From: Candidatus Cloacimonadota bacterium
Lineage (GTDB): Bacteria > Cloacimonadota > Cloacimonadia > Cloacimonadales > TCS61
Length of the DNA: 47,249 nt
Assembly (NCBI GenBank): GCA_021735645.1
Contig: JAIPGP010000018.1
Location: 1-47,249 of the forward strand
Reading direction: 5' to 3'
Of this stretch, positions 18,100 to 43,626 are shown piece after piece. The notes under the pieces are model-generated. The model ran no database searches. It was not told the DNA's origin and worked only from the letters and a program-made list of their open reading frames with translations. Both the position numbers and the translations under genes were made by a program. Within the stretch, counting starts at the first letter, position 1; every line of letters begins with the position of its first letter.

Positions 18100-18349
18100 A
18101 CAGTAAATCACTATTATCAATTTTTGACATTATATTCTATTAACCTTGTCAGGGCAATGGAAACCATATAAATAATTATATATGTAACTAAGTGGACAGG
18201 TTCAAAACATACAAAAATATATAATAAATGGCAAAGCAGGTATATTCAGGACAGCCAGGTTGATAAATTATCTACTTATAAACTAATTAGTTCTTGACGA
18301 ATAAAAAAATAATCTGAAATTGATATTAATAGTACAAAGAGGAAAAAGC
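18100..18349. promoter_or_regulatory. Leader/promoter region of the sucCD-fum-mae operon
   Basis: This 250-base AT-rich gap precedes sucC. A TTGACG box at 18294-18299 followed by AT-rich sequence with GATATTAAT (18322-18330) could act as a sigma-70-type promoter, though the -10 box and spacing are imperfect. The AGAGGA ribosome-binding site of sucC lies at 18338-18343. No riboswitch-like structure was recognised. Confidence 0.3.
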
Positions 18350-19525
18350 ATGAATATCCATGAATATCAAGCGAAAAAATTGTTATTTAATTACGGAGTA
18401 AATGTCACACGGGGACAGGTGGCTCACAGTGTGATAGAGGCGGAGCAGGCAGCTGAAGCACTTGGCTGTGAAAGCTGGATCGTGAAAGCTCAAATCCATG
18501 CCGGAGGCAGAGGTAAAGGTGGGGGAGTGAAATTTGCCCGAACTCTGACGGAAGTGAGAGAGCAGGCAGAGCGGATGCTGGGAATGAATCTGGTAACTCA
18601 TCAGACAGGAGAGTCTGGCAAGCTGGTGCAGAAGGTATATATCCAGGAAGCTTATAACATAGGCAAAGAGTTCTATCTGGGCATCGTGCTGGACAGGCGA
18701 CTGGAGATGCCGGTGATCATGGCATCCACTGAGGGTGGAGTAGATATCGAGACAGTTGCTGTCGAAACTCCGGAGAAAATAATCAAAGTTGGTATTGACC
18801 CTATAATAGGTTTACAGAGCTATCATTTACGAAAACTTGCCTACGGACTGGGGCTGGATAAAGACCAGATGAAGGAATTCAGCAAATTTATACCTCCATT
18901 ATTTGAGGCTTATTTGAAGACTGATGCCAGTCTGGTGGAGATCAATCCTTTAGTACTTCTGAAAAATGGAGAATTTATTGCTTTAGATGCCAAACTTAAT
19001 TTTGATGATAATGCCTTATACCGTCATCCTGAGATAGCAGCTTTGCGGGACGAGAGCGAAGAGGAAGCTGCGGAACTGGAAGCAGCGCGTTATGAATTGA
19101 GCTATGTGAAGCTGGATGGCAATGTAGGCTGCATCGTGAATGGAGCTGGACTGGCGATGTCCACTATGGATATTATCAAGCAGGAAGGCGGCGAGCCGGC
19201 GAATTTTCTGGATGTAGGTGGCAATGCCAGTGCCGAGACAGTAGCAAGAGGTTTTGAGCTCATTTTGCGGGATAAGAACGTGAAGGCGATACTGGTGAAT
19301 ATTTTTGGTGGCATCGTGAGATGCGACCGCATCGCTAATGGAATTCTGGAAGCTGCCCGGCTGATACATGTGCAGGTGCCTGTGATAGTGCGTCTGGATG
19401 GCACAAATGCCGCCGAAGCTGGTGAGATACTGAAAGAAGCCAGCATCAAGCAGATCATTATTGCCCGGGATATGCGGGAAGCAGCTCAACTGGCAGTTCA
19501 GGCAGCAAAAGGAGATAGAGTATGA
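18350..19525 (+). CDS. sucC: Succinyl-CoA ligase (ADP/GDP-forming), beta subunit
   Basis: The 391-residue protein has the canonical N-terminus [12 protein letters not shown], an ATP-grasp domain (about 1-240) with [14 protein letters not shown], the VEINPLVL metal/nucleotide-site stretch, and the C-terminal CoA-ligase domain with DVGGNAS and [10 protein letters not shown]. The enzyme couples succinyl-CoA <-> succinate + CoA to ADP or GDP phosphorylation. The start is the ATG at 18350, preceded by AGAGGA. An in-frame ATG 30 bases upstream lacks homology. The stop overlaps sucD by four bases (ATGA). It opens an operon of C4-dicarboxylate enzymes. Confidence 0.97.
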
Positions 19526-20391
19526 GCATCTTAGTAAATAAAGATTCACGGGTGGTAGTGCAGGGCTTCACAGGTAAAGAAGGCACTTTTCATGCCCAGA
19601 ATTGTATAGATTTTGGCACTAATATAGTGGCAGGAGTCACGCCCGGCAAGGGCGGGATGTGTCATTTAGGGAAGCCGGTATATAACACAGTGGAAGAGGC
19701 AGTAAACAGCACTCTGGCAGATGTGTCATTGATATTTGTGCCACCTGCATTTGCGGCAGATGCAATCCTGGAAGCTGCTGATGCCGGTATTAAGCTGATT
19801 GTGTGTATCACTGAAGGGATACCGGTACGTGATATTCTAAATGCCAAGAAATATGTGCAGCATAAAGGCAGCAGGCTGATAGGGCCTAACTGCCCGGGAA
19901 TAATCACCGCAGGAGAAGCAAAGATAGGTATTATGCCCGGTTATGTATTCCAGAAAGGCAGGATTGGTTTGATCTCCAAGTCTGGAACTTTAACTTATGA
20001 GGCAGCAAATCAGATCGTGAAAGCAGGAATGGGAATATCTACGGCAGTAGGCATTGGCGGTGATCCTATCATAGGGACAGACTTCATTGACCTGCTGCAA
20101 CTATTTGAAGCTGATGAAGATACAGATGCTATTGTGATGATAGGAGAGATCGGCGGAGAACTGGAAATACGGGCAGCAGAATACATCAAAGAACACCTTA
20201 CAAAACCTGTAGTGGCTTTTATCGCAGGACAGACGGCTCCCAAAGGCAAAAGAATGGGACACGCAGGGGCGATTATTGCCGGTAGTAAAGGAACTGCTCA
20301 GGAAAAGATAAATGCTTTGCAGACTGCAGGAGTGGAAGTATCTCTTTCACCGGCTGAAGTGGGCAGCACCCTGGCAGAATTAATAAAATAA
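19522..20391 (+). CDS. sucD: Succinyl-CoA ligase, alpha subunit
   Basis: The 289-residue subunit has the CoA-binding Rossmann fold with [16 protein letters not shown] near the N-terminus, the GPNCPGIIT loop, and the catalytic phosphohistidine in GHAGAIIAG (about residue 247). It forms the active enzyme with SucC. Length and motifs match the bacterial family throughout. The ATG is inside the sucC stop, giving coupled, equimolar expression. Confidence 0.97.
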
Positions 20392-20425: not shown

Positions 20426-21271
20426 ATGAGGAATGTAGATGTACAAGAGATCACAAAGATCGTTAAAAAACTATGTATTGAAGCATGTACCGTGGCGAAT
20501 GACAGTTTAGTTGAAAGCTTTCAAAGGTCACAGGCAAAGGAAGAATCTGCAGTGGGCAAAGCGGTCTTTCAGCAGTTACTCGAAAACGTGGAAATAGCAC
20601 GCAATGAGTGCACACCAATTTGTCAGGACACAGGATTCACAGTAGTATTTATGGAGATCGGGCAGGAAGTAGCCTTCAAGGGCGGATTACTGAAAGATGC
20701 CGTAAATGCAGGTGTTGCAGCAGGATACACAGAGGGTTATCTCCGTAAATCTATTGTGAAAGACCCCATTACTAATCCTGTGAATACTCAGGATAACACG
20801 CCGGCTATTCTGCATACAGATATTGTGGCAGGTGATAAAGTAAAGATCACAGTGATGCCCAAGGGTGGTGGTTCGGAGAATATGAGCCGCATAAAAATGA
20901 TGAAACCGGCAGATGGGGTGCAGGGCATAAGGAACTTCGTGGTGGAAACTGTGAAAAATGCCGGTGGCAATCCCTGTCCGCCCATATTTGTAGGTGTGGG
21001 AGTGGGCGGCACTTTTGATTATGTGGCATATATGGCAAAGAAGGCTTTATTACGTCCCATAGGCAAGCGAAATCCCGATCCCAAGATAGCAGAATATGAA
21101 AGGGAATGGCTGGATGAAGTGAATAACCTGGGAATCGGACCTGCCGGTCTGGGTGGCAGAGTCACAGCAATTGACCTGTTCATTGAAGTATTTCCTCGGC
21201 ATATTGCCACTTATCCTGTAGCAGTAAATATCCAGTGCCATGCTAACCGCGTAAAGTCATTTATATTGTGA
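20426..21271 (+). CDS. fumA: Class I fumarate hydratase, alpha subunit
   Basis: The 281-residue protein matches the N-terminal (iron-sulfur) domain of class I fumarases/L(+)-tartrate dehydratase alpha. Candidate [4Fe-4S] ligands are Cys residues in NECTPICQDTG, GGNPCPPIF and IQCHANR. The enzyme hydrates fumarate to malate and is oxygen-sensitive. An AAGAGG site precedes the ATG. It is the alpha half of a split two-gene enzyme, the usual arrangement in anaerobes, with the beta half starting 11 bases later. Tartrate dehydratase (TtdA) is a close paralogue, but the setting next to sucCD and malic enzyme favours fumarase. Confidence 0.92.
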   Translation: MRNVDVQEITKIVKKLCIEACTVANDSLVESFQRSQAKEESAVGKAVFQQLLENVEIARNECTPICQDTGFTVVFMEIGQEVAFKGGLLKDAVNAGVAAGYTEGYLRKSIVKDPITNPVNTQDNTPAILHTDIVAGDKVKITVMPKGGGSENMSRIKMMKPADGVQGIRNFVVETVKNAGGNPCPPIFVGVGVGGTFDYVAYMAKKALLRPIGKRNPDPKIAEYEREWLDEVNNLGIGPAGLGGRVTAIDLFIEVFPRHIATYPVAVNIQCHANRVKSFIL

Positions 21272-21281
21272 GGTGAAAATA

Positions 21282-21827
21282 ATGATAAAACTTAATGCTC
21301 CCCTAATTCTTGAAGATGTGAAGAAATTGAAAATAGGTGATCAAATCTCGCTTAGTGGCGTTATTTATACCGCTCGGGATTCTGCTCATCAGAAACTGGT
21401 GGATTTGCTTAAAGCAGGAGAAGAACTTCCCTTTGATCCGGATGGAAGTGTGATCTTTTATGTGGGACCTTCACCCGCCCAGCCGGGTCAGGTGATTGGT
21501 GCTGCAGGACCAACTACCAGCTACAGGATGGATCCCTTTGTAATAGACCTTATGAAAGTAGGTATGAAGGGAATGATAGGCAAGGGTCCGCGGTCTGAAG
21601 AAGTGAAAGCGGGATTGCGGGAATATACAGGTGTGTATTTCGGGGCTACAGGTGGTGCAGCAGCACTGCTGGCAAAATCCATTACAGCCGCCGAAGTGAT
21701 CGCTTTCCCCGAGCTGGGACCCGAAGCTGTGAGACGACTGGTAGTGAAGGATATGCCTTTGATAGTAGTAAATGATTGTTATGGCGGTGATCTTTATGAA
21801 AAGGGTGTGCAAGATTTCAGGAAATAA
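21282..21827 (+). CDS. fumB: Class I fumarate hydratase, beta subunit
   Basis: The 181-residue protein matches the C-terminal domain of class I fumarases (TtdB/FumA-C type), with GDQISLSGVIYTARD near the N-terminus and KGPRSEEVKAGL and FGATGGAAALLAKS in the middle. It supplies part of the active site to the alpha subunit. The open frame extends back to a GTG at 21273, but the ATG at 21282 is better placed, seven bases after GAGGTG. Confidence 0.92.
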   Translation: MIKLNAPLILEDVKKLKIGDQISLSGVIYTARDSAHQKLVDLLKAGEELPFDPDGSVIFYVGPSPAQPGQVIGAAGPTTSYRMDPFVIDLMKVGMKGMIGKGPRSEEVKAGLREYTGVYFGATGGAAALLAKSITAAEVIAFPELGPEAVRRLVVKDMPLIVVNDCYGGDLYEKGVQDFRK

Positions 21828-21858: not shown

Positions 21859-23316
21859 ATGAAAGTGAAAATGGATATTTCTAATATCAATGAAATATTT
21901 CCGTCAGATTTCTCAAACGAAGAAATAGCAAAGGCTAAAACACTGTTTCTGAAAAGATTAGCTCTTGTATCCCATAAATTCTACCGCGGTAAGATCCAGA
22001 TAGTTCCCAAGGTGCCTGTGCCCGGATTTAACTGGTTCAATGTCTGGTACACTCCGGGAGTATCGCTGGTTAGTACTACGATCAGAGATGATAATCTCAC
22101 CTCTTTTGAGCTTTCCAACCGGGGCAATCTGGTGGCTGTTGTGAGTGATTCCACCCGGGTGCTGGGTGATGGTGACTGCACTCCTCCTGGTGGACTGGGT
22201 GTGATGGAAGGCAAAGCCTATTTAATGAAATATCTGGGTGGTGTGGATGCTGTGCCATTATGCGTGGACAGCACAAATGCCGCAGGCAAAAAAGACCCTG
22301 ATAAAATTATAGAATTCGTCAAGATGGCAGCTCCCAGTTTTGGAGCAGTGAATCTGGAAGATATTTCGCAGCCTAATTGCTATAAGGTTTTAGATACCTT
22401 GCGTGAAGAATGCAGTATTCCTGTCTGGCATGATGATGCTCAAGGCACTGCCTCAGTTACACTGGCAGGTCTTATCAACGCCTTAAAGCTGGCTGGCAAA
22501 AAGATCGGAGATGTGAGAATAGTGATGAATGGAGCTGGTGCTTCCAATACCACCATCGCCAGATTTATCCTGGCAGCAGGAGCTGACCACCAAAAGATGG
22601 TTATGTTTGATTCTCGTGGATCATTACACGCTGGAAGAGTTGATATAGAGAGCAAACCGGAATTTTACCGTAAATGGGATTTATGCCGGATGACCAATCC
22701 GGATAGAATTCCTGATATAGCTACAGCTATGAAGGGTGCTGATGTATTGATCGCCCTTTCAAAGCCGGGGCCAGGAACTATCAAACCGGAGTGGATCAGT
22801 AAGATGGCAGCTAAATCCATCGTATTTGTCTGCGCCAATCCAGTACCGGAAATTTACCCTTATGCTGCCAAGGAAGCCGGAGCTTTTATCGTTGCAACGG
22901 GTAGAGGAGATTTTCCTAATCAGGTGAATAATTCAATTGGCTTCCCGGGAATTTTGAAGGGTACTTTGCTGGTGCGAGCTTCTAAGATCACAGATAATAT
23001 GGCTATAGCAGCTTCATATTCTCTGGCTAATTATGCGGAACAGCGGGGAATAACTCCTGATGATATTATCCCTAAGATGGACGAACCGGACATCTTCTGC
23101 CAGGAAGCAGCGGATGTGGCTATGCAGGCGATAAAAGATGGAGTAGCAAGACTGCCTTTGAGCCGCGAGGAAGTATTTGCTGCTGCTAAAAAAGATATTG
23201 ACTATGCCAGGGACTTAACTAATTCCATGGTTAGTAACGGCTTTATCGAGAACGTGCCACAGGACTTTCTGGAAGAAGCCAGAGATTGGGCGGTTAAACA
23301 GGTTAAAGGAGTATAG
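21859..23316 (+). CDS. maeB: NAD(P)-dependent malic enzyme
   Basis: The 485-residue protein carries the malic-enzyme N-terminal domain with the YTPGVSLV stretch, GDCTPPGGLGVMEGKA, and metal and substrate residues in WHDDAQGTASVT. An NAD(P)-binding domain with VMNGAGASNTTIAR (about 222-235) follows. The enzyme converts malate to pyruvate and CO2, or the reverse. It is the short form without the phosphotransacetylase domain of E. coli MaeB. GGAGGAATAATA lies directly before the ATG. Position after fumarase in the same operon closes the route from succinyl-CoA to pyruvate. Cofactor preference cannot be read with confidence. Confidence 0.93.
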   Translation: MKVKMDISNINEIFPSDFSNEEIAKAKTLFLKRLALVSHKFYRGKIQIVPKVPVPGFNWFNVWYTPGVSLVSTTIRDDNLTSFELSNRGNLVAVVSDSTRVLGDGDCTPPGGLGVMEGKAYLMKYLGGVDAVPLCVDSTNAAGKKDPDKIIEFVKMAAPSFGAVNLEDISQPNCYKVLDTLREECSIPVWHDDAQGTASVTLAGLINALKLAGKKIGDVRIVMNGAGASNTTIARFILAAGADHQKMVMFDSRGSLHAGRVDIESKPEFYRKWDLCRMTNPDRIPDIATAMKGADVLIALSKPGPGTIKPEWISKMAAKSIVFVCANPVPEIYPYAAKEAGAFIVATGRGDFPNQVNNSIGFPGILKGTLLVRASKITDNMAIAASYSLANYAEQRGITPDDIIPKMDEPDIFCQEAADVAMQAIKDGVARLPLSREEVFAAAKKDIDYARDLTNSMVSNGFIENVPQDFLEEARDWAVKQVKGV

Positions 23317-23322
23317 ATATTG

Positions 23323-24147
23323 ATGAAAGATTTAAATCAGTTATTTAAAAAGGCTGAGGATTTTAAGCGAAAAGGTTTGCTGGATAATGCCATTGAGTTG
23401 TATAATGAGATACTGGCAGAAGACCCCGACTATGAAGATATTCATGCCATTCTAGGCGAAATCTATTACATTAAGGGCGATGTGGAGCTCTCGGTGCAGA
23501 ATTATGAATTGCAGATTGCAAAATGTTCTGAAAACTGTCTCGTGCTTTATCGCCTCGGTATTACTTATTATCGCGCAACTCAATTTTCCAAATCAATTCA
23601 TATCCTCAGTAATCTGCTGCAGAAAGGTTGTGAACTTGATATGGCATATTACTGGATGGGTCTGGCATACTACCATACCGGCAGAATACATAAAAGTATA
23701 GAGATGTTTGAGACCCTGCGGGATAAGATGCCTCAGAATACTATAGGCTGCAATAATCTGGCCCTTGCCTATAAGACAATTGGAGATTATACTAAGGCAA
23801 TTGAGTGTTTTAAGCAGATTCTGGCTGAAGACCCTGCCATTGTGTCGGTTCATTATAACATGGGTTTATCCTATCTGGGAGATATGCAGATTGCTTTGGC
23901 TCTGAAACATTTCCAGAGGGTAGTGGAGCTTGATCCTGAGCACATTGCCGCCCGTAAAAAGCTGGATGAGATATATAATGACCAGGAGATGCTGTATTCT
24001 TATGGTATTGCAGCTCCCAAGGACATCACGAATCACGAGGAACTGGATATCAATTTCCGGATCGGAGAGGCATATAAAGGGTTTAGTATGATTGATAAGA
24101 CGTTTAAGTACCTCAAAAGCCTGGCAATTGATAAGGATAAAAAGTAA
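23323..24147 (+). CDS. Tetratricopeptide repeat protein
   Basis: The 274-residue soluble protein is almost entirely TPR helices (about six repeats between residues 5 and 215), with units such as AIELYNEILAEDPD and AIECFKQILAEDP. It has no signal peptide or catalytic domain. It starts six bases after the malic enzyme stop, so it is the last gene of the sucCD-fum-mae operon. A scaffold or assembly role for the neighbouring enzymes is possible but unproven. The ATG at 23323 is preferred over the in-frame TTG at 23320. Confidence 0.85.
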   Translation: MKDLNQLFKKAEDFKRKGLLDNAIELYNEILAEDPDYEDIHAILGEIYYIKGDVELSVQNYELQIAKCSENCLVLYRLGITYYRATQFSKSIHILSNLLQKGCELDMAYYWMGLAYYHTGRIHKSIEMFETLRDKMPQNTIGCNNLALAYKTIGDYTKAIECFKQILAEDPAIVSVHYNMGLSYLGDMQIALALKHFQRVVELDPEHIAARKKLDEIYNDQEMLYSYGIAAPKDITNHEELDINFRIGEAYKGFSMIDKTFKYLKSLAIDKDKK

Positions 24148-24240: not shown

Positions 24241-25914
24241 CTATTTCACCAGCGTTCCCAGATATTCTTCTGTCATCTGCTTAGCCTTCACGTGATCAGG
24301 GATATAGTCCGGTAATATCAGTGGAGATATCTTTTCTTTCGGAACTCCCAGTTTCTCCACTTCTTTGGCATAATCATCTACATGCTTTAAGCTTAATTCA
24401 CCAAGCTCAATCCCGGCTATCACTTTTTCTGCTGCATGGATTCCTGCTCTTCTGCCAAACACGATGATATCAAGCTGAGAATTGCCCATAAGCCTATTCC
24501 TGCCATGAATTCCACCCGAAGCTTCTCCGGCTACATACAGACCCGGAACCGTGGTTTCGGCATTCTTATTGATCTCCAGTCCGCCATTTTGATAATGCAG
24601 AGTGGGGAAGACCAGCATGGGATATTTGCGGATATCGATATCAAATCTCTCATATTGTCTCAGCATAGCGGGAAGGGTTGTCTCGATCGTTCCTTCCCCG
24701 GAAAGTTCTTCAATCAGGGGACTATCCAGCCAGATACCTTTGAGACCGGAAGGAGTGGTTACTCCTCTGCCTTCTTCACACTCGCGGATAAAGGCAGAAG
24801 CTTCCACATCTCTGGGTTCCAGAGGATATACAAAGAGTTCTCCAGCTTCATTTACCGGCTGAGCACCAATAGAGCGTATCTTTTCTGTGCACAAAAAGCC
24901 CACGATCTGTTCCGGAAAAACTGCTCCGGTGGGATGATACTGCACAGAGTCCATAAACATCAGATTAGCACCGGCTCTATAGCCCAATACCAGTCCATCA
25001 CCAGTAGCTCCATAATGATTTGTGGTTTCAAAGCCACGTATATGCAGTCTGCCGAAACCGCCAGTTGCAATTATCACAGTTTTGGCTTTCACAATAAAAT
25101 ATTCTTTCAGCTCGATATGATAAAGGATAGCACCGGCTACTTGACCTTTATCATCTAATATCAGCTCAGTTGCTGAGGTATATTCCAGGTATTTTACGTT
25201 CTGAGCGTTGCTGTAAACCTCATCCCGCAGTACGCGGCAGATTCCGGCACCAGTATAATCTCTGGTAGAGTGCATGCGGTTACGGCAGGTTCCGCCACCC
25301 GGCTTCACTGTCATTCTGCCGTCATCATCTTTATCAAACATCACTCCCAGGTCTTCCAGCCATTTTATGGACTTAGGTCCGTCCATCACCAGAGCTTCCA
25401 CCAGTTCCTTTTTATTATCAAAGTGACCACCACCTATCACGTCCAGATAGTGCAAAGTGGGACTGTCATCCCGCTGATCTGCTGCCTGGATTCCGCCCTG
25501 AGCCATCATGGAATTGCTGTCACCCAGACGCAGTTTAGTTACCAGCAGCGTTTTCACACCCTTCTTGTCTGCTTCAATTGCAGCAGAAAGACCGGCACTG
25601 CCAGCACCGATCACCAGCACATCAGTCTCATAATCAACTTTGGAAAGATCAAAGTCACTGGCTTTATTACGTGGATAAGATTCCATGATGTCCACCACTT
25701 CATTGATGATCATCTCACCTTTATTTACTCCCAGTCGCATCTCACGCAGAGCGTCTTTTTTATAGTCAGGATGAAAGGTCTCTAAAATATTTTCACGTTC
25801 CTGCTCATCCATTGGAGGAAATACCTGTTTCCCCTGTTTTCTGGCGATTGCCAGTCGTTTTGCCCGGGTTGCTTCTACTTTCTTGATTGATTCCATCATA
25901 TATTCCGGATACAT
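24241..25914 (-). CDS. frdA: Fumarate reductase/succinate dehydrogenase-type flavoprotein (soluble, TfrA-like)
   Basis: The 557-residue flavoprotein belongs to the FrdA/SdhA/NadB family. FAD-binding GAGSAG is at 103-108 after an unusual N-terminal extension of about 95 residues. The capping-domain and active-site stretches include GGTCRNRMHSTRDYTG, QYHPTG and GRNRLMGNSQLD. At the position where membrane FrdA carries the FAD-linking His (SHTVAAEGG in E. coli) this protein has SNSMMAQGG, with Asn134. FAD is therefore probably non-covalent, as in L-aspartate oxidase and thiol:fumarate reductase. It lies last in hdrA-hdrC-hdrB-frdB-frdA with no membrane anchor gene. The likely reaction is fumarate <-> succinate in the cytoplasm. 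A relative acting on another enoate is possible. Confidence 0.82.
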   Translation of the reverse strand: MYPEYMMESIKKVEATRAKRLAIARKQGKQVFPPMDEQERENILETFHPDYKKDALREMRLGVNKGEMIINEVVDIMESYPRNKASDFDLSKVDYETDVLVIGAGSAGLSAAIEADKKGVKTLLVTKLRLGDSNSMMAQGGIQAADQRDDSPTLHYLDVIGGGHFDNKKELVEALVMDGPKSIKWLEDLGVMFDKDDDGRMTVKPGGGTCRNRMHSTRDYTGAGICRVLRDEVYSNAQNVKYLEYTSATELILDDKGQVAGAILYHIELKEYFIVKAKTVIIATGGFGRLHIRGFETTNHYGATGDGLVLGYRAGANLMFMDSVQYHPTGAVFPEQIVGFLCTEKIRSIGAQPVNEAGELFVYPLEPRDVEASAFIRECEEGRGVTTPSGLKGIWLDSPLIEELSGEGTIETTLPAMLRQYERFDIDIRKYPMLVFPTLHYQNGGLEINKNAETTVPGLYVAGEASGGIHGRNRLMGNSQLDIIVFGRRAGIHAAEKVIAGIELGELSLKHVDDYAKEVEKLGVPKEKISPLILPDYIPDHVKAKQMTEEYLGTLVK

Positions 25915-25930
25915 TTATTGCCTCCCCTGC

Positions 25931-26617
25931 TTATCTTATCTTCATTTCGCGGGAATAATACTTCTTCACCAGATCATCGTGACCCATATTATTCAATTCT
26001 TCGATTTCCGCATCATATTTACCGTCTGCTATTTCCTGCAATCTGTCAGCAAGTTCAGGACTCGGTTTTGCCAGGTATTTGCCATATAATCGCTGAGCCA
26101 GGGTGGCAGCATTGAATTGTACAATATCTGCCGGACAGCGCAATGCACATAATCCGCAGCGAATACAGTCAAAAGAAGTAGAAGCTGCTGCTGCAATGTC
26201 TCCGCGTTTAAGCTGCTGGATATAATCCATCACTTTGATGTCCTGAGGACAGGCTTTGGAGCAGGTATTACATGCCACACATCTGAATATTGTTGGAAAA
26301 AGCTCTTTGAATGTATTAATGTCAGGTTTCAATTCTGCTAGATTATAACGCGGTCGTTCCGCGGGTACATATGGAATCTGCACCAGAGACATGCCTTCCG
26401 AAACTACGGTTTGACAGGCTAATCCACCTTTAAGTTTATAATCTCCTTTTTCCCGATAAACTGTGGCACAGGCTCCGCAGAATCCTTCCCGGCAGCCCAG
26501 TCCTTTTTTCAACTGAAATCCGGCATATTCCCAAGCCATGATAATCGTGGAACCTTCGGGCACCAGCTGGGGTTCACCCATTATATAAACAGTGACCATC
26601 TTTTGCTCTACTGCCAT
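25931..26617 (-). CDS. frdB: Fumarate reductase/succinate dehydrogenase-type iron-sulfur subunit
   Basis: The 228-residue protein has an N-terminal plant-type [2Fe-2S] domain (CREGFCGAC, then a fourth Cys in LACQT). It is followed by two four-Cys iron-sulfur motifs, CVACNTCSKACP and CIRCGLCALRCP. This is the SdhB/FrdB layout, with the second motif in full [4Fe-4S] form, as in the N-terminal half of methanogen TfrB. In TfrB an HdrB-like CCG domain is fused. Here that domain is the separate upstream gene. The ATG at 26617 lies nine bases from AAGGAGG. An in-frame TTG at 26623 is too close to the site. It should wire electrons between the flavoprotein and HdrB/HdrC. Confidence 0.85.
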   Translation of the reverse strand: MAVEQKMVTVYIMGEPQLVPEGSTIIMAWEYAGFQLKKGLGCREGFCGACATVYREKGDYKLKGGLACQTVVSEGMSLVQIPYVPAERPRYNLAELKPDINTFKELFPTIFRCVACNTCSKACPQDIKVMDYIQQLKRGDIAAAASTSFDCIRCGLCALRCPADIVQFNAATLAQRLYGKYLAKPSPELADRLQEIADGKYDAEIEELNNMGHDDLVKKYYSREMKIR

Positions 26618-26649
26618 TGTCAATGACCTCCTTACAGTATATAGATTTT

Positions 26650-27549
26650 TTATTTATTCAATATCTTATTTTTTAGTAGAGGCATGCCATCTACTTTATT
26701 ATTTTCAAAGCCAAACTTATTAATATCCAGTCCCAGGGCAATTGCCAAAAGCTGCGAAAAATATAGGACCGGTATAGGCTCAAAGTTCGGATTCCTGATT
26801 TGAAGAAGCTCCTGTCTGCTATCCAGATTAAAGGCGCATAAGGGACAGCTTGTAATTATCAGATCAGCTCCATTTCTACGGGCATCTTCCAGGATCTTAC
26901 CCGTTAGCTTTACTACTATATTCTCTTTATTCACCGTAAGATAACTGCCGCAGCAGGTCTTCTTTGACCGCCAGTCCACCGGCTCAGCACCAAGAGCTTT
27001 CAAGAAATCTTCAAAAATTGTGGGCTCTTCAGCATCATCTATTCCCACTTCTTTGGGTCGGATCAGCATACAGCCATAATAAGGCGCTACCTTCAGACCT
27101 TTAAGCGAAACTTTCACTTTCTCGGCTATTTTAGCAAAGCCATATTCTTTCAGAATTTCCAGATAATGCATCACCTGCACGCTGCCATCATATTTCTGGT
27201 CTTCCTTATACATAAAATCATTGATTGTTTCCAGCTCATCAGCATGTTCCTGCATCTTTAGGTTTGATCGCTTCAGTGTATTCATGCACATGGAGCAGAG
27301 TGTGAGCATCTTATTATCAGTATCCACTATTTTATCATTCTGCATCTCCAGCACGCGTATCATATTGCGAACAGGTGCCAGATGGTGCATCAGATCATCA
27401 CTCGTGAGCGAGGATACCACTCCACAACAGTTCCAGCGAGGTATCTCCACAAATTCAATGCCCAGTTCTGCACCGGAGGCAATAGCAGATTTCTCAAAAC
27501 TGCTGGCATAAGTTTTTAATGAGCATCCTGGAAAATATGGTATTTTCAC
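26650..27549 (-). CDS. hdrB: Heterodisulfide reductase subunit B-like CCG-domain protein
   Basis: The 299-residue protein has two CCG domains. The first has CSLKTY, WNCCGV and CSMCMN. The second has YYGCMLIRP, KTCCGSY and SCPLCAF. Each matches the cysteine pattern that in HdrB binds a non-cubane [4Fe-4S] cluster and reduces disulfides. It begins with GTG, eight bases after AAGGAG, an unusual start for this window. Disulfide substrate is unknown because CoM/CoB is not expected outside methanogens. The position between hdrC and frdB suggests it forms part of one complex with them. Confidence 0.88.
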   Translation of the reverse strand: MKIPYFPGCSLKTYASSFEKSAIASGAELGIEFVEIPRWNCCGVVSSLTSDDLMHHLAPVRNMIRVLEMQNDKIVDTDNKMLTLCSMCMNTLKRSNLKMQEHADELETINDFMYKEDQKYDGSVQVMHYLEILKEYGFAKIAEKVKVSLKGLKVAPYYGCMLIRPKEVGIDDAEEPTIFEDFLKALGAEPVDWRSKKTCCGSYLTVNKENIVVKLTGKILEDARRNGADLIITSCPLCAFNLDSRQELLQIRNPNFEPIPVLYFSQLLAIALGLDINKFGFENNKVDGMPLLKNKILNK

Positions 27550-27571
27550 TTTTATATCTCCTTATTATCTT

Positions 27572-27976
27572 CTACGAGCTTAGTTTGCGCAAAGCTGCTA
27601 TTAATGCTATTTGAGGTAATTCTTTCAATACGTTTTTAGGCAGGTCATTAATGTCCAGATTATTGATCTCATCACGCAGCTTGATCTGGCGTAATGCCTC
27701 AGCTATTTTAGACACGTCCAGTTTCCGCGGGCAGCGCACTGTGCAGGTATTGCAGGTGGCACATATCCATAAAGTGTCACATTCCAGCACATCTTCCTGT
27801 CCCAGCATCACTTTCCGCATCAATTGAGCAGGTGTGATGTCCATCTCTTCCACAAAAGGGCAGCCACCGGAGCAGGTGCCGCATTGATCACACATCGCGG
27901 TATTTTCTCCGGACAATTCTTCCACTTTTTTCTGGAATGCCAGGGTCTTTTCATTTAGTACTATTTTCTTTGTCAT
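27572..27976 (-). CDS. hdrC: Heterodisulfide reductase subunit C-like 4Fe-4S protein
   Basis: The 134-residue protein has two four-Cys motifs, CDQCGTCSGGCP and CATCNTCTVRCP, each followed by Pro, as in HdrC and related electron-transfer subunits. It would relay electrons from HdrA to HdrB. It starts 11 bases after the hdrA stop with a GAGGTG site and ends 22 bases before hdrB. It is soluble and lacks the membrane subunit of the HdrDE type. Confidence 0.88.
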   Translation of the reverse strand: MTKKIVLNEKTLAFQKKVEELSGENTAMCDQCGTCSGGCPFVEEMDITPAQLMRKVMLGQEDVLECDTLWICATCNTCTVRCPRKLDVSKIAEALRQIKLRDEINNLDINDLPKNVLKELPQIALIAALRKLSS

Positions 27977-27987
27977 CTATTCACCTC

Positions 27988-30360
27988 TTATAATTCCTGT
28001 CTTTGCTCTTCTGTGATTGGTTCTGCCTGTTTCAATTTTGCCGAAAGATCATTGATCATTGCCGTAAATTTCTGCAGATCACCTGCCGAAAATTCACTGA
28101 AGAATATCCGCTCATCTGCTATGCCGGCTTCTGCCAGTCTGGCTCTTGCTGCCAGCATAGTCTGCTCAGTAACATCTCTGCTCCAGGGATAAAGCGAACT
28201 GGCGACCGGGCAATCACCCAGAATCACCAGATCTGCTCCCTGTTTAAAGGAGTGCAGTATCAGATTTGCTGATATCCGGGCAGAACTGGGAACTCGCATT
28301 ATCCGGGTATCAATATCATATTTCATTTTACGGATGCCCAGCGCATCTGCCAGTCTATAGGTGCAGGTATTATCCGCAAAGATCAGTATTCGCGTTTCTC
28401 CGGGCTTTTTACCTGCCAGTATGCCATTGATACTGGCATACATCTGGCTATTTGAGCTGTTATGAAAATCTATCGCTTCCAGCGGACACACAGGCAGACA
28501 GGCTCCACAGCCCACGCAAAGCGCTTCCACTACCTCTGCCTTGCCTCCCTTCATTAATATAGCATCTTTGGGACAGGCAGCTACACATTTACCGCAGCCA
28601 TCACAAATCTCTGTCTCTACAAAGGCAAGCTGAGGATCTACATCAAATTCTTTCTGTGCCAGGGTTACCATTACTCTCGCCGCCGCTGCACTTGCCTGGG
28701 CTACTGTATCAGGAATGTCTTTGGGCCCCTGAGCCACGCCACAGATAAATACTCCTTCTATATTTGTGTCCACCGGCTTGTATTTAGGATGTGCTTCCTG
28801 CAAAAATCCATCAGAACTCTTGGTGAGTTTCAGGAAATTGACTATCTTTTCAGTTGAATCATTTGGTTTTAAGCCATTTGAAAGCACTACCAGATCAAAT
28901 TCACTTTCTATTATCTGCCGTGACAGCGTGTCTTCTGCTTTCAACAGCACTTTTTCACTATCCGGCACACCATGCAGTTCTGCCACTTTGCCCCGGATGA
29001 ATTTGATCCCCAGTTGCTGGGCTCGCTTATAATATTCTTCAAAGCCCTTGCCATAGGCTCTGATATCAGTATAGAAAACATAAATGTCTTTTTCCGGTTT
29101 TGCCTGCTTAAGCAGTGATGCCAGCTTCACGGCATACATGCAGCAGACCCGCGAGCAGTATTCTCTGCCGGTCTGCTCATCACGTGAGCCCACGCACTGG
29201 ATAAAGGCTACTTTATCGCCCACTGGTCGTGGTGGCGGCTTCTCAGTGATGTGATCCACTATCCGCTCCATCTCCAGTCCGGTTACCACATTCTTCAATT
29301 TATCATAGCCAAACATGGGCTTCTCAGAAGGATGAATGGTGTCATAACCCGTTGCTACTATAATATTATCAACTGTAAACTGCACTTTCTCCGGTTTCTG
29401 ACTAAAATCTATCACCTGCTGCGGACAGATAGTCTCACACTTATTGCAGGAACCGTCCTTAAAGTGCAGACACACGCTGTCATCAATCAGATAACGGAAT
29501 GGTATTGCCAATGCTGCCGGGATATATATTGCCTTACGCTGCATGATTCCCTGCTCCCACATATTAGGAGCACTCACAGGGCATTCCTGCACGCACTGTT
29601 CGCAGATCAGGCACTGATCCATATCTATCTCCGGCTTAATGTAGCGGGGTTTCTTTTCTACCGTAATTTCAAAATGCAGTCTGTGTCCCACTGTGCTCAC
29701 GATCTCAGAATTGGTCATTAGATTGATATTAGGATGATCCTGTGCTGCTGCCATCTTGGGTGAAATAATGCAGGCAGAGCAATCTTCCGTGGGAAAGGTC
29801 TTCGTGAGTATTGCCATCTTGCCGCCGATAGTCGGCTCTTTTTCCACCAGATACACTTCATTGCCGGTATCTGCCAGATCAAGCGAAGCCTGGATTCCGG
29901 CTATTCCGCCGCCTATCACCAGCACGCGTTTGCCCATCTTGATCTTTTTCTTCTCCAGACTGTAATTTTCACGCACTTTGTTCACGCCAGCCAGAACCAG
30001 GTCTTTTGCCTTCTCAGTTGCTGCCTCAGGCTGGTCTTTATAGGGCCAGGAACAATGCTCACGCAGGTTCACCAGTTCAAGTACGAATTGATTCAAACCT
30101 GCTTTCTCCATGGTCGCCCTGAACGTCTTCTCATGGAAATGCGGTGAACAGGAAGCTATCACTATCCTGTTCAAACCCTTGTCTTTTGCTTCTTCAATGA
30201 TCAATTTCTGCCCGGCTCCTGAACACATATTTGAATGTATCTGAACCACAGAAATATCATCTTTGCCTTCCACAAAATTCTGAACTTCCGGTAAATCGAT
30301 GGTCTTGGAAATATTCCCGCCACACTGGCAAAGAAAAACTCCTATCTTCTTTTCAGCCAT
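27988..30360 (-). CDS. hdrA: Heterodisulfide reductase subunit A-like flavoprotein with degenerate MvhD-like C-terminal domain
   Basis: HdrA is the flavin protein where bifurcation occurs in HdrABC complexes. The 790-residue product has the N-terminal CQCGGNI region, a thioredoxin-reductase-like FAD fold with VLVIGGGIAGIQASL (about 145-160), and DCSACIISPKM. It also has inserted ferredoxin motifs (CLICEQCVQECP, CNKCETICP) and a C-terminal two-cluster ferredoxin (CDGCGKCVAACP, CVGCGACLPVCP). The last ~130 residues resemble MvhD, the [2Fe-2S] subunit that links hydrogenase to HdrA. Most cluster cysteines are missing (NTCTYRLAD, RVPSSARI, GDCPVASS). It leads a five-gene reverse-strand operon with a GAGGG site upstream. 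Confidence 0.9.
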   Translation of the reverse strand: MAEKKIGVFLCQCGGNISKTIDLPEVQNFVEGKDDISVVQIHSNMCSGAGQKLIIEEAKDKGLNRIVIASCSPHFHEKTFRATMEKAGLNQFVLELVNLREHCSWPYKDQPEAATEKAKDLVLAGVNKVRENYSLEKKKIKMGKRVLVIGGGIAGIQASLDLADTGNEVYLVEKEPTIGGKMAILTKTFPTEDCSACIISPKMAAAQDHPNINLMTNSEIVSTVGHRLHFEITVEKKPRYIKPEIDMDQCLICEQCVQECPVSAPNMWEQGIMQRKAIYIPAALAIPFRYLIDDSVCLHFKDGSCNKCETICPQQVIDFSQKPEKVQFTVDNIIVATGYDTIHPSEKPMFGYDKLKNVVTGLEMERIVDHITEKPPPRPVGDKVAFIQCVGSRDEQTGREYCSRVCCMYAVKLASLLKQAKPEKDIYVFYTDIRAYGKGFEEYYKRAQQLGIKFIRGKVAELHGVPDSEKVLLKAEDTLSRQIIESEFDLVVLSNGLKPNDSTEKIVNFLKLTKSSDGFLQEAHPKYKPVDTNIEGVFICGVAQGPKDIPDTVAQASAAAARVMVTLAQKEFDVDPQLAFVETEICDGCGKCVAACPKDAILMKGGKAEVVEALCVGCGACLPVCPLEAIDFHNSSNSQMYASINGILAGKKPGETRILIFADNTCTYRLADALGIRKMKYDIDTRIMRVPSSARISANLILHSFKQGADLVILGDCPVASSLYPWSRDVTEQTMLAARARLAEAGIADERIFFSEFSAGDLQKFTAMINDLSAKLKQAEPITEEQRQEL

Positions 30361-41031: not shown

Positions 41032-41568
41032 TTACTTCTTTCCTAATTCATAACCTTTGTCAATTGCTTCCAGATTCATGTCATAGAGTTCCGGCGCTTT
41101 TTTCTGGAGCGGTGCTATGGAATTCAGCATGGTTTCTTTCTTCACCAGTTCCGTATTACCCATCACCATACCAATTGCCACCATATTCATCACTTTCAGA
41201 TTGCCAATTTCCTTGGCTATCGTTGTCATTGGGGCACTAACGACCTTGATATCCGTCCGATCAGTGCCTTTGGGACACATATCTTCATTATAGATCAAAA
41301 GCCCGCCTGCTTTCAGCATGGGCGCAAATTTATCTATAGATGGCTGATTAAGAGCGATCACAATATCGGGATGTGCCACAACCGGTGAACCTACAGGCTT
41401 ATCAGAGATCACGGTAGATACATTAGCTGTGCCGCCCCGCATCTCCGGCCCATAAGAAGGCAGCCATGATACGTTTTTCCCTTCATTCATTCCGGCTTTC
41501 ACCAGAAACTTACCTATGGTGAGTGCTCCCTGTCCACCAAATCCTGCGCAGATCATTTCAGTTTTCAT
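41032..41568 (-). CDS. korC: 2-oxoacid:ferredoxin oxidoreductase, gamma subunit
   Basis: The 178-residue subunit matches KorC/VorA-gamma type proteins, with CAGFGGQGALTIGKFL near the N-terminus and the SYGPEMRGGTANV stretch (about 39-51) that contacts CoA and the other subunits. Together with KorA, KorB and the ferredoxin subunit it oxidatively decarboxylates a 2-oxoacid to its acyl-CoA, reducing ferredoxin, or runs in reverse. The start codon is embedded in the korB stop (ATGA). Confidence 0.92.
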   Translation of the reverse strand: MKTEMICAGFGGQGALTIGKFLVKAGMNEGKNVSWLPSYGPEMRGGTANVSTVISDKPVGSPVVAHPDIVIALNQPSIDKFAPMLKAGGLLIYNEDMCPKGTDRTDIKVVSAPMTTIAKEIGNLKVMNMVAIGMVMGNTELVKKETMLNSIAPLQKKAPELYDMNLEAIDKGYELGKK

Positions 41569-42317
41569 TTTGCCTCCTCTATGCCCTTATCACGGAAATT
41601 TTGCACTTTGAAAAATGGTAACATGTGCTCACGTGCCCAGTCCCGGGATTCTAAGGCATCCAGTCCCCAGTTAGTGGGGCAGGTAGAGACGAATTCAATG
41701 AAAGTGAATCCGCGTTCTTCTTTATTATAGGTCAATGCTTTCAAAACTGCTTTCTTGGCTTTCATGATCTCTGCCGGTGATAACAAGCTGACGCGCTCAA
41801 TAAAATAGGGAGCTACTAAAGTATTCAAAAGCTCACATACCCTGATAGGATATCCTATATCATCTACATCTCTGCCGTAAGGCGAGGTAGTGGTTTTCAT
41901 GTCTGGAAGTGTGGTAGGAGCCATTTGACCGCCGGTCATACCATAAATAGCATTATTTACGAAGAATACTGTGATATGTTCGCCACGATTGGCGGCATGC
42001 ACTATTTCCGCGGTGCCTATTGCTGCCAGATCGCCGTCACCCTGATAGGTGAATACGTTCATATCCGGACGTGCCCGTTTCATGCCTGTTGCCAGGGCAG
42101 GGGCTCTGCCATGTGCAGCTTCCTGCATATCAATATTAAAGAATTTATAGGCAAATACCGAGCAGCCCACCGGAGCTACGCCCATCATCTGGTTTCTCAT
42201 GCCCAGTTCATCTATTGCCTCTGCTATCAATCTATGTGCCACGCCATGCAGACAGCCTGGACAGTATGTGAAATTAAGATCAGTTAATGTATTTGGTCTG
42301 GTTGCGATTACTTGCAT
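41565..42317 (-). CDS. korB: 2-oxoacid:ferredoxin oxidoreductase, beta (thiamine diphosphate) subunit
   Basis: The 250-residue subunit binds thiamine diphosphate and magnesium through the GDGD...N motif (YQGDGDLAAIG, then FVNNAIYGMTGGQ). CPGCLHG near the N-terminus and VAPVGCSVFAYKF follow the family pattern. It is short, as in Kor/Vor enzymes, compared with the longer PorB type. The start overlaps the korA stop by one base. Substrate is likely 2-oxoglutarate or branched-chain 2-oxoacids. Confidence 0.92.
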   Translation of the reverse strand: MQVIATRPNTLTDLNFTYCPGCLHGVAHRLIAEAIDELGMRNQMMGVAPVGCSVFAYKFFNIDMQEAAHGRAPALATGMKRARPDMNVFTYQGDGDLAAIGTAEIVHAANRGEHITVFFVNNAIYGMTGGQMAPTTLPDMKTTTSPYGRDVDDIGYPIRVCELLNTLVAPYFIERVSLLSPAEIMKAKKAVLKALTYNKEERGFTFIEFVSTCPTNWGLDALESRDWAREHMLPFFKVQNFRDKGIEEAK

Positions 42318-43411
42318 TATTTTGCCTCCTCAAGATTCTCGGCGATTTTGGCTTTCACTTCATCAGTCGAGAATAATATACCACCTACTTTGCCCATGAA
42401 ATCTACCGGAACTTTACCATTTACCGCTATTTTCACGTCCTGTACCATTTGTCCAAGATTCAATTCAAATACTATTACCTTCTTGACTTTGTCTCCTACT
42501 GCTTTATACACTGCATCATAAGGATAGGGCCATACTGTGATGGGGCGAACTAAGCCGATATTATGTCCGGCATCATTCAATTCGTCTATGGCAGATTTAC
42601 AAATTCTGGAAGCTGTGCCAAAGGCTACTACCAGTATCTCATTATCAGCATTGATATTATAATCTTCCCAACGCTGCTCATTGGCGGTTATCTTGTCATA
42701 TTTCTCACCCAGCCTTAGCACATGCTGCTCCAGCACCACCGGATCGATTTCCAGAGAATTGATCTCATGATGATGATGATTCGGCTCGTCTTCATTCGGG
42801 CAGCAGCACCAGTCAAGATGCTGATTATCAAGCTCTTTCAGCTCTGCTTCCGTCTTTGCCGGTAAAAATTCCACCGGCTCCATCATTTGACCCAGTAAAC
42901 CATCGGCAAGAATTACTACCGGATTGCGATATTTATCTGCCAGATCAAATGCCAGAGATGCCATATCGGCAAATTCCTGAACTGTGCTGGGTGCCAGCGC
43001 CATTGTGTAATAATCTCCATTACCACCACCACGTGTAGCCTGGAAATAATCACCCTGTGCCGGCTGAATATCTCCCAGACCTGGTCCGCCGCGCTGCACA
43101 TTCACGATCACTGCCGGCAGGTTTGCTCCGGCAAGATAGGATATTCCTTCCTGCTTGAGGGCAATGCCGGGAGATGATGATGAAGTCATCGCACGTCTGC
43201 CGCAGCCGGATGCGCCATACACCATGTTAATTGCTGCTATTTCACTTTCTGCCTGCACGAATACACCACCAGCTTTGGGCATCATGCGAGCCATATATTC
43301 TATTAATTCACTTTGCGGAGTGATGGGATAGGCAAAATATAGCCGGCATCCTGCTCTAATTGCTGCTTCTGCTACTGCTTCATTGCCTTTCATTAATACT
43401 TTTTCTGCCAT
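42317..43411 (-). CDS. korA: 2-oxoacid:ferredoxin oxidoreductase, alpha subunit (VorB/KorA type)
   Basis: The 364-residue subunit has MKGNEAVAEAAIRAG at the N-terminus, YPITPQSELIEY (about 25-36) and TSSSSPGIALKQEG. These are standard for the alpha subunit, which contributes to the 2-oxoacid and thiamine sites. A histidine cluster (NHHHHE) lies in a loop near residue 225 and is not a family hallmark. The ATG at 43411 gives the best spacing to GGAGG. Longer starts run into the ferredoxin gene. Databases often label this subfamily VorB, but the neighbouring C4/C5 acid genes make 2-oxoglutarate a plausible substrate. Confidence 0.92.
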   Translation of the reverse strand: MAEKVLMKGNEAVAEAAIRAGCRLYFAYPITPQSELIEYMARMMPKAGGVFVQAESEIAAINMVYGASGCGRRAMTSSSSPGIALKQEGISYLAGANLPAVIVNVQRGGPGLGDIQPAQGDYFQATRGGGNGDYYTMALAPSTVQEFADMASLAFDLADKYRNPVVILADGLLGQMMEPVEFLPAKTEAELKELDNQHLDWCCCPNEDEPNHHHHEINSLEIDPVVLEQHVLRLGEKYDKITANEQRWEDYNINADNEILVVAFGTASRICKSAIDELNDAGHNIGLVRPITVWPYPYDAVYKAVGDKVKKVIVFELNLGQMVQDVKIAVNGKVPVDFMGKVGGILFSTDEVKAKIAENLEEAK

Positions 43412-43422
43412 CATTCCTCCCT

Positions 43423-43626
43423 TTACTTCTCGATCGTTATTGCTACATCTGGACAGGTGGTGTAGCACATTTTGCAGGCTATGCAGGCTTCCTGATCAAA
43501 GCACTCGGCATAATGATAGCCCTTTTTGTTAATGTTCTCAGAAAAGCGGATGATTTTTTTGGGACATGCTGCTATGCAGAGTCCACAGCCCTTGCAATAT
43601 TTGGGGTCTACGGTCATTCTCGCCAT
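43423..43626 (-). CDS. korD: 2[4Fe-4S] ferredoxin subunit of 2-oxoacid oxidoreductase
   Basis: The 67-residue protein has two four-Cys cluster motifs, CKGCGLCIAACP and CIACKMCYTTCP, plus one extra Cys (AECFDQ) between them. It is the first gene of the reverse-strand kor operon, 11 bases before korA, and should carry electrons from the thiamine subunit to free ferredoxin. An AGGAGA-like site precedes the ATG. Confidence 0.93.
   Translation of the reverse strand: MARMTVDPKYCKGCGLCIAACPKKIIRFSENINKKGYHYAECFDQEACIACKMCYTTCPDVAITIEK

Follow-up and report, generated by a model that had tools for sequence, protein, structure and literature searches.

Organization of the hdr-frd operon and its proteins

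The 47,249-nt stretch JAIPGP010000018.1 (assembly GCA_021735645.1, Candidatus Cloacimonadota bacterium), referred to below as the window, carries at positions 24241-30360 an operon of five minus-strand genes, hdrA-hdrC-hdrB-frdB-frdA, whose products are candidates for a joint HdrABC-FrdAB fumarate reductase. The stretch is contig C143 of genome G000, an assembly of 151 contigs and 3.77 Mb that is 95% complete. The intergenic spacings were 11, 22, 26 and 16 bases in gene order, or 11-32 bases if frdB begins at ATG. The coordinates (Table 1) bear out the gene order, strand, place and short gaps given in a first-pass annotation made from the sequence alone. The lack of a membrane anchor gene, also claimed there, was confirmed: no anchor gene was present among the genes neighbouring the operon and no membrane-like helix was detected in the five proteins (top 19-residue Kyte-Doolittle mean 1.62). 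The SdhB and CCG modules that are fused in TfrB-type proteins are, as had been stated, encoded here by separate genes. The gene arrangement recurs in relatives and other phyla and is therefore not due to chance.

Table 1. Positions of the operon genes and of neighbouring genes in the window.
Feature	Position	Strand	Description
hdrA	27988-30360	-	790 aa; HdrA2-like flavoprotein with FAD motif, six [4Fe-4S] ligand sets and Cys197
hdrC	27572-27976	-	134 aa; two [4Fe-4S] motifs
hdrB	26650-27549	-	299 aa; two complete CCG motifs (noncubane cluster type)
frdB	25931-26623	-	230 aa from TTG, ATG two codons on; [2Fe-2S] and two [4Fe-4S] motifs
frdA	24241-25914	-	557 aa; succinate dehydrogenase/fumarate reductase (SDH/FRD)-type flavoprotein, Asn134 at the covalent-FAD His position
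sucC-sucD	18347-20391	+	succinyl-CoA synthetase; convergent neighbour of the operon
fumarase genes	20426-21827	+	two-subunit Fe-S fumarase
malic enzyme gene	21859-23316	+
TPR-repeat protein gene	23320-24147	+	follows the malic enzyme gene
korABG-like genes	41032-43468	-	2-oxoacid:ferredoxin oxidoreductase; 11 kb away in the window

The assignments of HdrA, HdrC, HdrB (CCG domains) and FrdA were backed by Pfam and NCBIfam. Residues 1-650 of HdrA matched the solved methanogen HdrA at E ~1e-190, and the score with the HdrA2 model NF040770 was 866 bits, under the cut-off of 1100. The protein retains the flavin adenine dinucleotide (FAD) motif, all [4Fe-4S] ligand sets, those of both ferredoxin domains included, and Cys197, which in the M. 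wolfeii enzyme is the ligand reaching across the HdrA dimer (PMC9012536). Its C-terminal part (aa 658-778), overlooked in the first-pass annotation, is an MvhD/FlpD-like domain without [2Fe-2S] ligands. In the solved complex, MvhD hands electrons into HdrA (PMC9012536). Cys was found at all four ligand columns in 53 of 53 standalone MvhD rows of the alignment, and at most one of the four was kept in 16 of 16 HdrA-fused rows, which include the window twice and some duplicate contigs. The loss was restricted to operons without MvhAG and Flx; with the cluster ligands lost, the usual MvhD port is gone in these operons. No description of the ligand-less, HdrA-fused type was found in the mainly non-subscription literature covered. 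Tandem hdrA pairs, consisting of a ligand-less fused HdrA and a second HdrA, were observed in loci L057, L087, L139 and L140, and in L057 and L087 the second HdrA has an intact MvhD. The pairs suggest HdrA heterodimers, as proposed for anaerobic methanotrophic (ANME) archaea.

HdrB scored 167 bits with the SdhE model (cut-off 500) and 162 bits with the HdrB model, below both cut-offs. FrdB is weakly SdhB-like and contains one [2Fe-2S] motif and two complete CxxCxxCxxxCP motifs; the [3Fe-4S] pattern is absent. The [2Fe-2S] and both [4Fe-4S] motifs were invariant across 44 sequences. The sole phmmer matches of FrdB in the PDB were generic ferredoxins, and its AlphaFold model was weak near the clusters (pLDDT 79.7, pTM 0.60). 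The predicted model of FrdA (pLDDT 82, pTM 0.85) best matched SDH/FRD flavoproteins. The dicarboxylate-site residues of FrdA (HPT, TE, PRD, HYxNGG, HGxNRL) were present in all 43 aligned sequences; the protein has an N-terminal extension of ~95 aa and, by Pfam, no C-terminal SDH domain.

In relatives (e.g. L041) sucCD shares an operon with frdA, and in many of them the kor genes lie immediately upstream of the hdr genes. In Neomarinimicrobiota (L072, L073, L074), the TPR-repeat gene was seen again, with fumarase genes on one side and hdr genes on the other.

Linkage of frdAB and hdr genes across genomes

The scan of species genomes resulted in 454 stretches with FrdA relatives, of which the best 80 were read, together with closer relatives. 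Loci were taken as informative if non-duplicate and with at least 3 kb upstream (64 loci), and as linked if a same-strand hdr gene lay within 9 kb. Linkage of frdAB and hdr was determined for 59 of the 64 loci. By their labels, the loci cover at least nine phyla; the labels come from the record titles of metagenome-assembled genomes (MAGs), some of which may be mis-binned (e.g. one 'Bacteroidales' row falls among the Aminicenantes). The closest named relatives of the window FrdA were Cloacimonadota. No hdr neighbour was found in L063, L064, L089, L094 and L123. That frdAB would be habitually apart from hdr, which the first-pass annotation had named as contrary to its proposal, was thus rejected within the clade. 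Such a separation was seen only in a distant aerobic FrdA branch (~43% identity to the window FrdA), in which frdBA is paired with a NuoF-like gene without Hdr. These operons, of the order frdB-frdA-nuoF-like, were observed in the aerobic Cupriavidus and Pseudoroseomonas (L168 5321-8887, L169 5213-8816) and possibly encode a soluble NADH:fumarate reductase.

Three operon types were distinguished. Type 1, hdrA(fused MvhD)-hdrC-hdrB-frdB-frdA without hydrogenase, occurs in the window, Delongbacteria, some Neomarinimicrobiota and one Spirochaetaceae MAG; flx and hydrogenase genes are absent from the window operon and the other type-1 operons. Type 2, kor-hdrC-hdrB-hdrA-mvhD-frdB-frdA-mvhG-mvhA, has the [NiFe] hydrogenase MvhAG as the input, and in type 3, kor-hdrA-mvhD-flx-frdB-frdA, found in Aminicenantes and others, this place is taken by Flx, a module for NAD(P)H. 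Mapped onto the FrdA tree, the type-1 and Mvh states call for four changes, at least three of which are forced by supported branches. Constraining the type-1 loci together on this tree was rejected (p-AU 8e-8, approximately unbiased test); the groups were set by gene content, although a first tree was already known at that point. In the HdrA tree, the type-1 proteins clustered together with a single exception, a Celaenobacter copy. Two genomes of the same genus, G004 and G020, differ in operon type. The frdAB-hdr pairing has therefore outlasted exchanges of the Hdr cassette, good evidence that both work together.

In the phylum sample, FrdB was detected in 27 of 88 genomes and in none of the 38 genomes of family f10. 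The latter result fits the report that digester Cloacimonadota are without succinate dehydrogenase (PMC13082233). Some of the Cloacimonadota loci contain additional genes. A glyoxalase-family gene of the methylmalonyl-CoA-epimerase type lies between korABG and frdB in L063 (5726-6133), L064 (8570-8974) and L089 (6075-6479), hinting at a link to the methylmalonyl-CoA pathway. Genes for a GlcD-like FAD oxidoreductase and a GlcF-like iron-sulfur protein were found within the frd-mvh cluster of L045 (3913-5924) and L047 (9283-12833) and are possibly another electron input or output module.

In the cultured Ilyobacter polytropus DSM 2926, a row of aspartase, hdrB, hdrC, hdrA, mvhD, three flx-like genes, frdB and frdA was identified. 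Aspartase forms fumarate. The mvhD of this row keeps its ligands, and the FrdA is 57% identical to that of the window. I. polytropus ferments malate and fumarate, the products being acetate, formate and propionate; no cytochromes were detected and succinate was not used (PMC3035301).

Direction, proposed mechanism and alternatives

The Asn134 of FrdA aligns with the covalent-FAD His of E. coli SdhA and is invariant in the clade and in distant aerobic relatives. For one enzyme without covalent FAD no succinate oxidation was reported, and His mutants of the E. coli and yeast enzymes lose this activity (PMC2680327). Fumarate reduction is therefore favoured, and succinate oxidation, which the first-pass annotation had treated as an equal alternative, was not borne out. 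With assumed potentials, the reduction of fumarate and ferredoxin by two H2 or NADH came out as favourable in most of the calculated cases, by 16 to 85 kJ/mol, and approached zero at the extremes only. In contig C129 of G000 (L160 349-7718), aconitase, two ATP-citrate lyase subunits and monomeric isocitrate dehydrogenase are encoded in one row, which supplies most of the reductive tricarboxylic acid (TCA) cycle. This row and the Ilyobacter aspartase agree with the direction of fumarate reduction. Altogether, fumarate reduction is the likely direction, and the soluble fumarate reductase of the FrdAB type is probably one-way.

Judged from the sequences, HdrABC and FrdAB likely act as a joint unit. 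The explanation that we favour, with restrained confidence, is one cytoplasmic fumarate-reducing complex with the electron path HdrA-HdrC-HdrB-FrdB-FrdA and bifurcation at HdrA. Electrons would enter the FAD of HdrA and pass via HdrC, HdrB and FrdB to the FAD of FrdA, where fumarate would be reduced to succinate. HdrB would serve on two sides, docking HdrC in the usual HdrB manner and FrdB in the manner of SdhE. The SucCD, fumarase, malic enzyme and Kor genes nearby, the Flx-Hdr-Frd row of Ilyobacter and the ATP-citrate lyase of the genome also speak for this explanation. In relatives driven by H2 or NADH, the other electron pair probably goes from HdrA to ferredoxin, which in its reduced form could be used by the neighbouring 2-oxoglutarate:ferredoxin oxidoreductase. 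As the window HdrA retains every cluster needed, bifurcation is the best guess for this version too, with a chance somewhat better than even. The cytoplasmic complex with Hdr bifurcation put forward in the first-pass annotation is thus supported by the conserved linkage and by the MvhAG and Flx inputs of the relatives; the window operon points to no particular second carrier, because the HdrA-fused MvhD has lost its cluster ligands and MvhAG and Flx are lacking.

Several results weigh against the bifurcating complex. The window version has neither hydrogenase nor Flx genes, and the cluster ligands are missing from its MvhD domain. In the Cloacimonadota loci L063, L064 and L089, a type-1 hdrA-hdrC-hdrB set is located elsewhere in the genome (L061 and L063 belong to one genome). 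For FrdB, an SdhB fold is no more than a possibility, since the Foldseek matches, to subunits of complex I and of hydrogenases, all had low TM scores. As to the direction, the introduction of His into the enzyme without covalent FAD did not bring about succinate oxidation (PMC2680327), so the His alone does not account for the difference.

The electron donor was sought in the genome G000. A group-3c [NiFe] hydrogenase was not found, the sole NiFe-family match being a NuoD-like protein. F420 was rejected as the donor, as no F420 pathway was seen and no CofH scored above the cut-off in this 95% complete genome. No second GxGxxG motif for direct binding of NAD(P)H by HdrA was seen by eye. The genome encodes a trimeric-type NADH-dependent [FeFe] hydrogenase and NuoF/RnfC-family proteins. 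An unlinked Hdr-Flx cluster on contig C80 (L142, L143) comprises several hdrA-like genes (one of 1476 aa), HdrC and rhodanese-like proteins, and no Frd genes. At the end of contig C90 (14758-16356; L145), a further FrdA/TfrA-like flavoprotein was observed, which scored 405 bits with the TfrA model; the sequence around it contains no iron-sulfur partner. A doubtful but conceivable variant is that the type-1 enzyme is a bifurcating fumarate reductase with a new, undocked donor other than H2, F420H2 or NADH via Flx, in which the cluster-free MvhD would serve as a docking or gating element.

The window lineage could instead be non-bifurcating, a ferredoxin:fumarate oxidoreductase in which electrons from reduced ferredoxin would pass through HdrA to HdrC, HdrB and FrdB, with FrdA as the electron sink. 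The restriction of MvhD ligand loss to operons lacking MvhAG and Flx is in accordance with such a relay, and the MvhD-fused HdrA2B2C2 of Methanosarcina acetivorans does take electrons from ferredoxin (PMC5296606). However, all HdrA clusters and Cys197 have been kept although a simple relay has no need of them, and spending ferredoxin on fumarate is a poor energetic bargain; we consider the relay possible, but rather unlikely. The system could also run in reverse, with succinate oxidised by confurcation in propionate or amino-acid oxidation and with reduced ferredoxin from pyruvate or 2-oxoglutarate helping to push electrons to a mid-potential carrier. The genome encodes methylmalonyl-CoA mutase and MeaB, which would suit this direction, as would the epimerase-like gene by frdBA in L063, L064 and L089 and the near-equilibrium attainable at very low fumarate/succinate. 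It is nevertheless improbable in view of the Asn found throughout at the covalent-FAD His position, the aspartase-led operon and fumarate fermentation of Ilyobacter, and the 16-85 kJ/mol towards reduction in most computed cases.

HdrABC and FrdAB might be two separate enzymes that are merely co-transcribed, HdrABC reducing a disulfide and FrdAB being fed by another soluble carrier. Both noncubane-type motifs of HdrB are usable for disulfide reduction, the hdr and frd sets are apart in three genomes, and the distant FrdBA branch is paired with a NuoF-like gene. The linkage in 59 of 64 loci through repeated cassette exchange, and the roughly equal similarity of HdrB to the HdrB model and to SdhE, the natural partner of SdhB, render the separation quite improbable. 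Least of all do we expect the FrdA substrate to be another unsaturated or amino dicarboxylate. FrdA is far below all FRD/SDH equivalog cut-offs and also resembles L-aspartate oxidase, but the SDH/FRD site residues are invariant, fumarase, SucCD or aspartase are encoded nearby, and the genome has nadB at another place, where nadA-like and nadC-like genes adjoin it.

Fumarate reduction is usually viewed as membrane-bound and quinone-linked. A soluble version tied to HdrABC, if true, could save the large amount of energy released on the way to fumarate in the form of reduced ferredoxin, for use by the adjacent 2-oxoglutarate synthase, so that the reductive TCA cycle and succinate or propionate fermentation would yield more. 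As the pairing is found in many phyla without cultured members as well as in a fusobacterium available in culture, the proposed bifurcating fumarate reductase is directly testable.

Comparison with known systems

The concept of Hdr-coupled fumarate reduction was already proposed in 2019, and the present operon is a variant of it. No literature was found under the name 'bifurcating fumarate reductase'; the earlier proposals were treated as Flx and reductive TCA topics. According to its citation in PMC7282089, a 2019 preprint (Koendjbiharie, van Kranenburg) proposed a Flx-Hdr-coupled fumarate reductase, the 'succinate operon', in Pseudoclostridium thermosuccinogenes. As described there, a two-gene fumarate reductase, fumarase and an Hdr complex share that operon and ferredoxin coupling was proposed, as for the window; its NADH input is Flx, whereas the window has no input module and a fused, cluster-less MvhD. 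Reductive TCA clusters with interspersed kor, tfr, flx and hdr genes are known from tubeworm symbionts and from Thioflavicoccus mobilis, and one joint complex was suggested for them (PMC6315080; Rubin-Blum 2019). Compared by description only, these clusters resemble the window in Kor, Hdr and a TFR-like fumarate reductase and differ in the Flx input. The Ca. Celaenobacter cluster (L087; PMC8542988) belongs to the same phylum and FrdAB clade, with 67% FrdA identity, Kor and Hdr, but has MvhAG and two HdrA copies; its Hdr and fumarate reductase were treated as separate enzymes (PMC8542988).

The methanogen HdrABC-MvhAGD (5odc) shares with the window the HdrA domains and clusters, HdrB and HdrC. 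In the window, in contrast, no hydrogenase is present, FrdAB stands at the acceptor end and MvhD is fused and cluster-less. The HdrA-MvhD fusion is common to the window and to M. acetivorans HdrA2B2C2, which uses F420H2 as the donor (PMC5296606) and has no FrdAB, whereas no F420 pathway was found in the window genome. Non-covalent FAD, a second [4Fe-4S] cluster in place of [3Fe-4S] and a CCG subunit are likewise characteristic of the Wolinella SdhABE methylmenaquinol:fumarate reductase (PMC2680327), which is periplasmic and quinone-linked and lacks an Hdr module. The thiol:fumarate reductase TfrAB is also soluble and combines FRD and CCG chemistry; TfrB is a fusion, whereas the window has separate subunits and HdrA. 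The identity of the window enzyme as a thiol:fumarate reductase was rejected on the basis of the separate genes and the score of 332 bits with the TfrA model NF004900 against a cut-off of 718. The Ehe cluster of Culexarchaeia (PMC9723716), compared by description, similarly combines sdhA with hdrA2B2C2, but it is archaeal, includes a membrane hydrogenase and was suggested to function in succinate oxidation.

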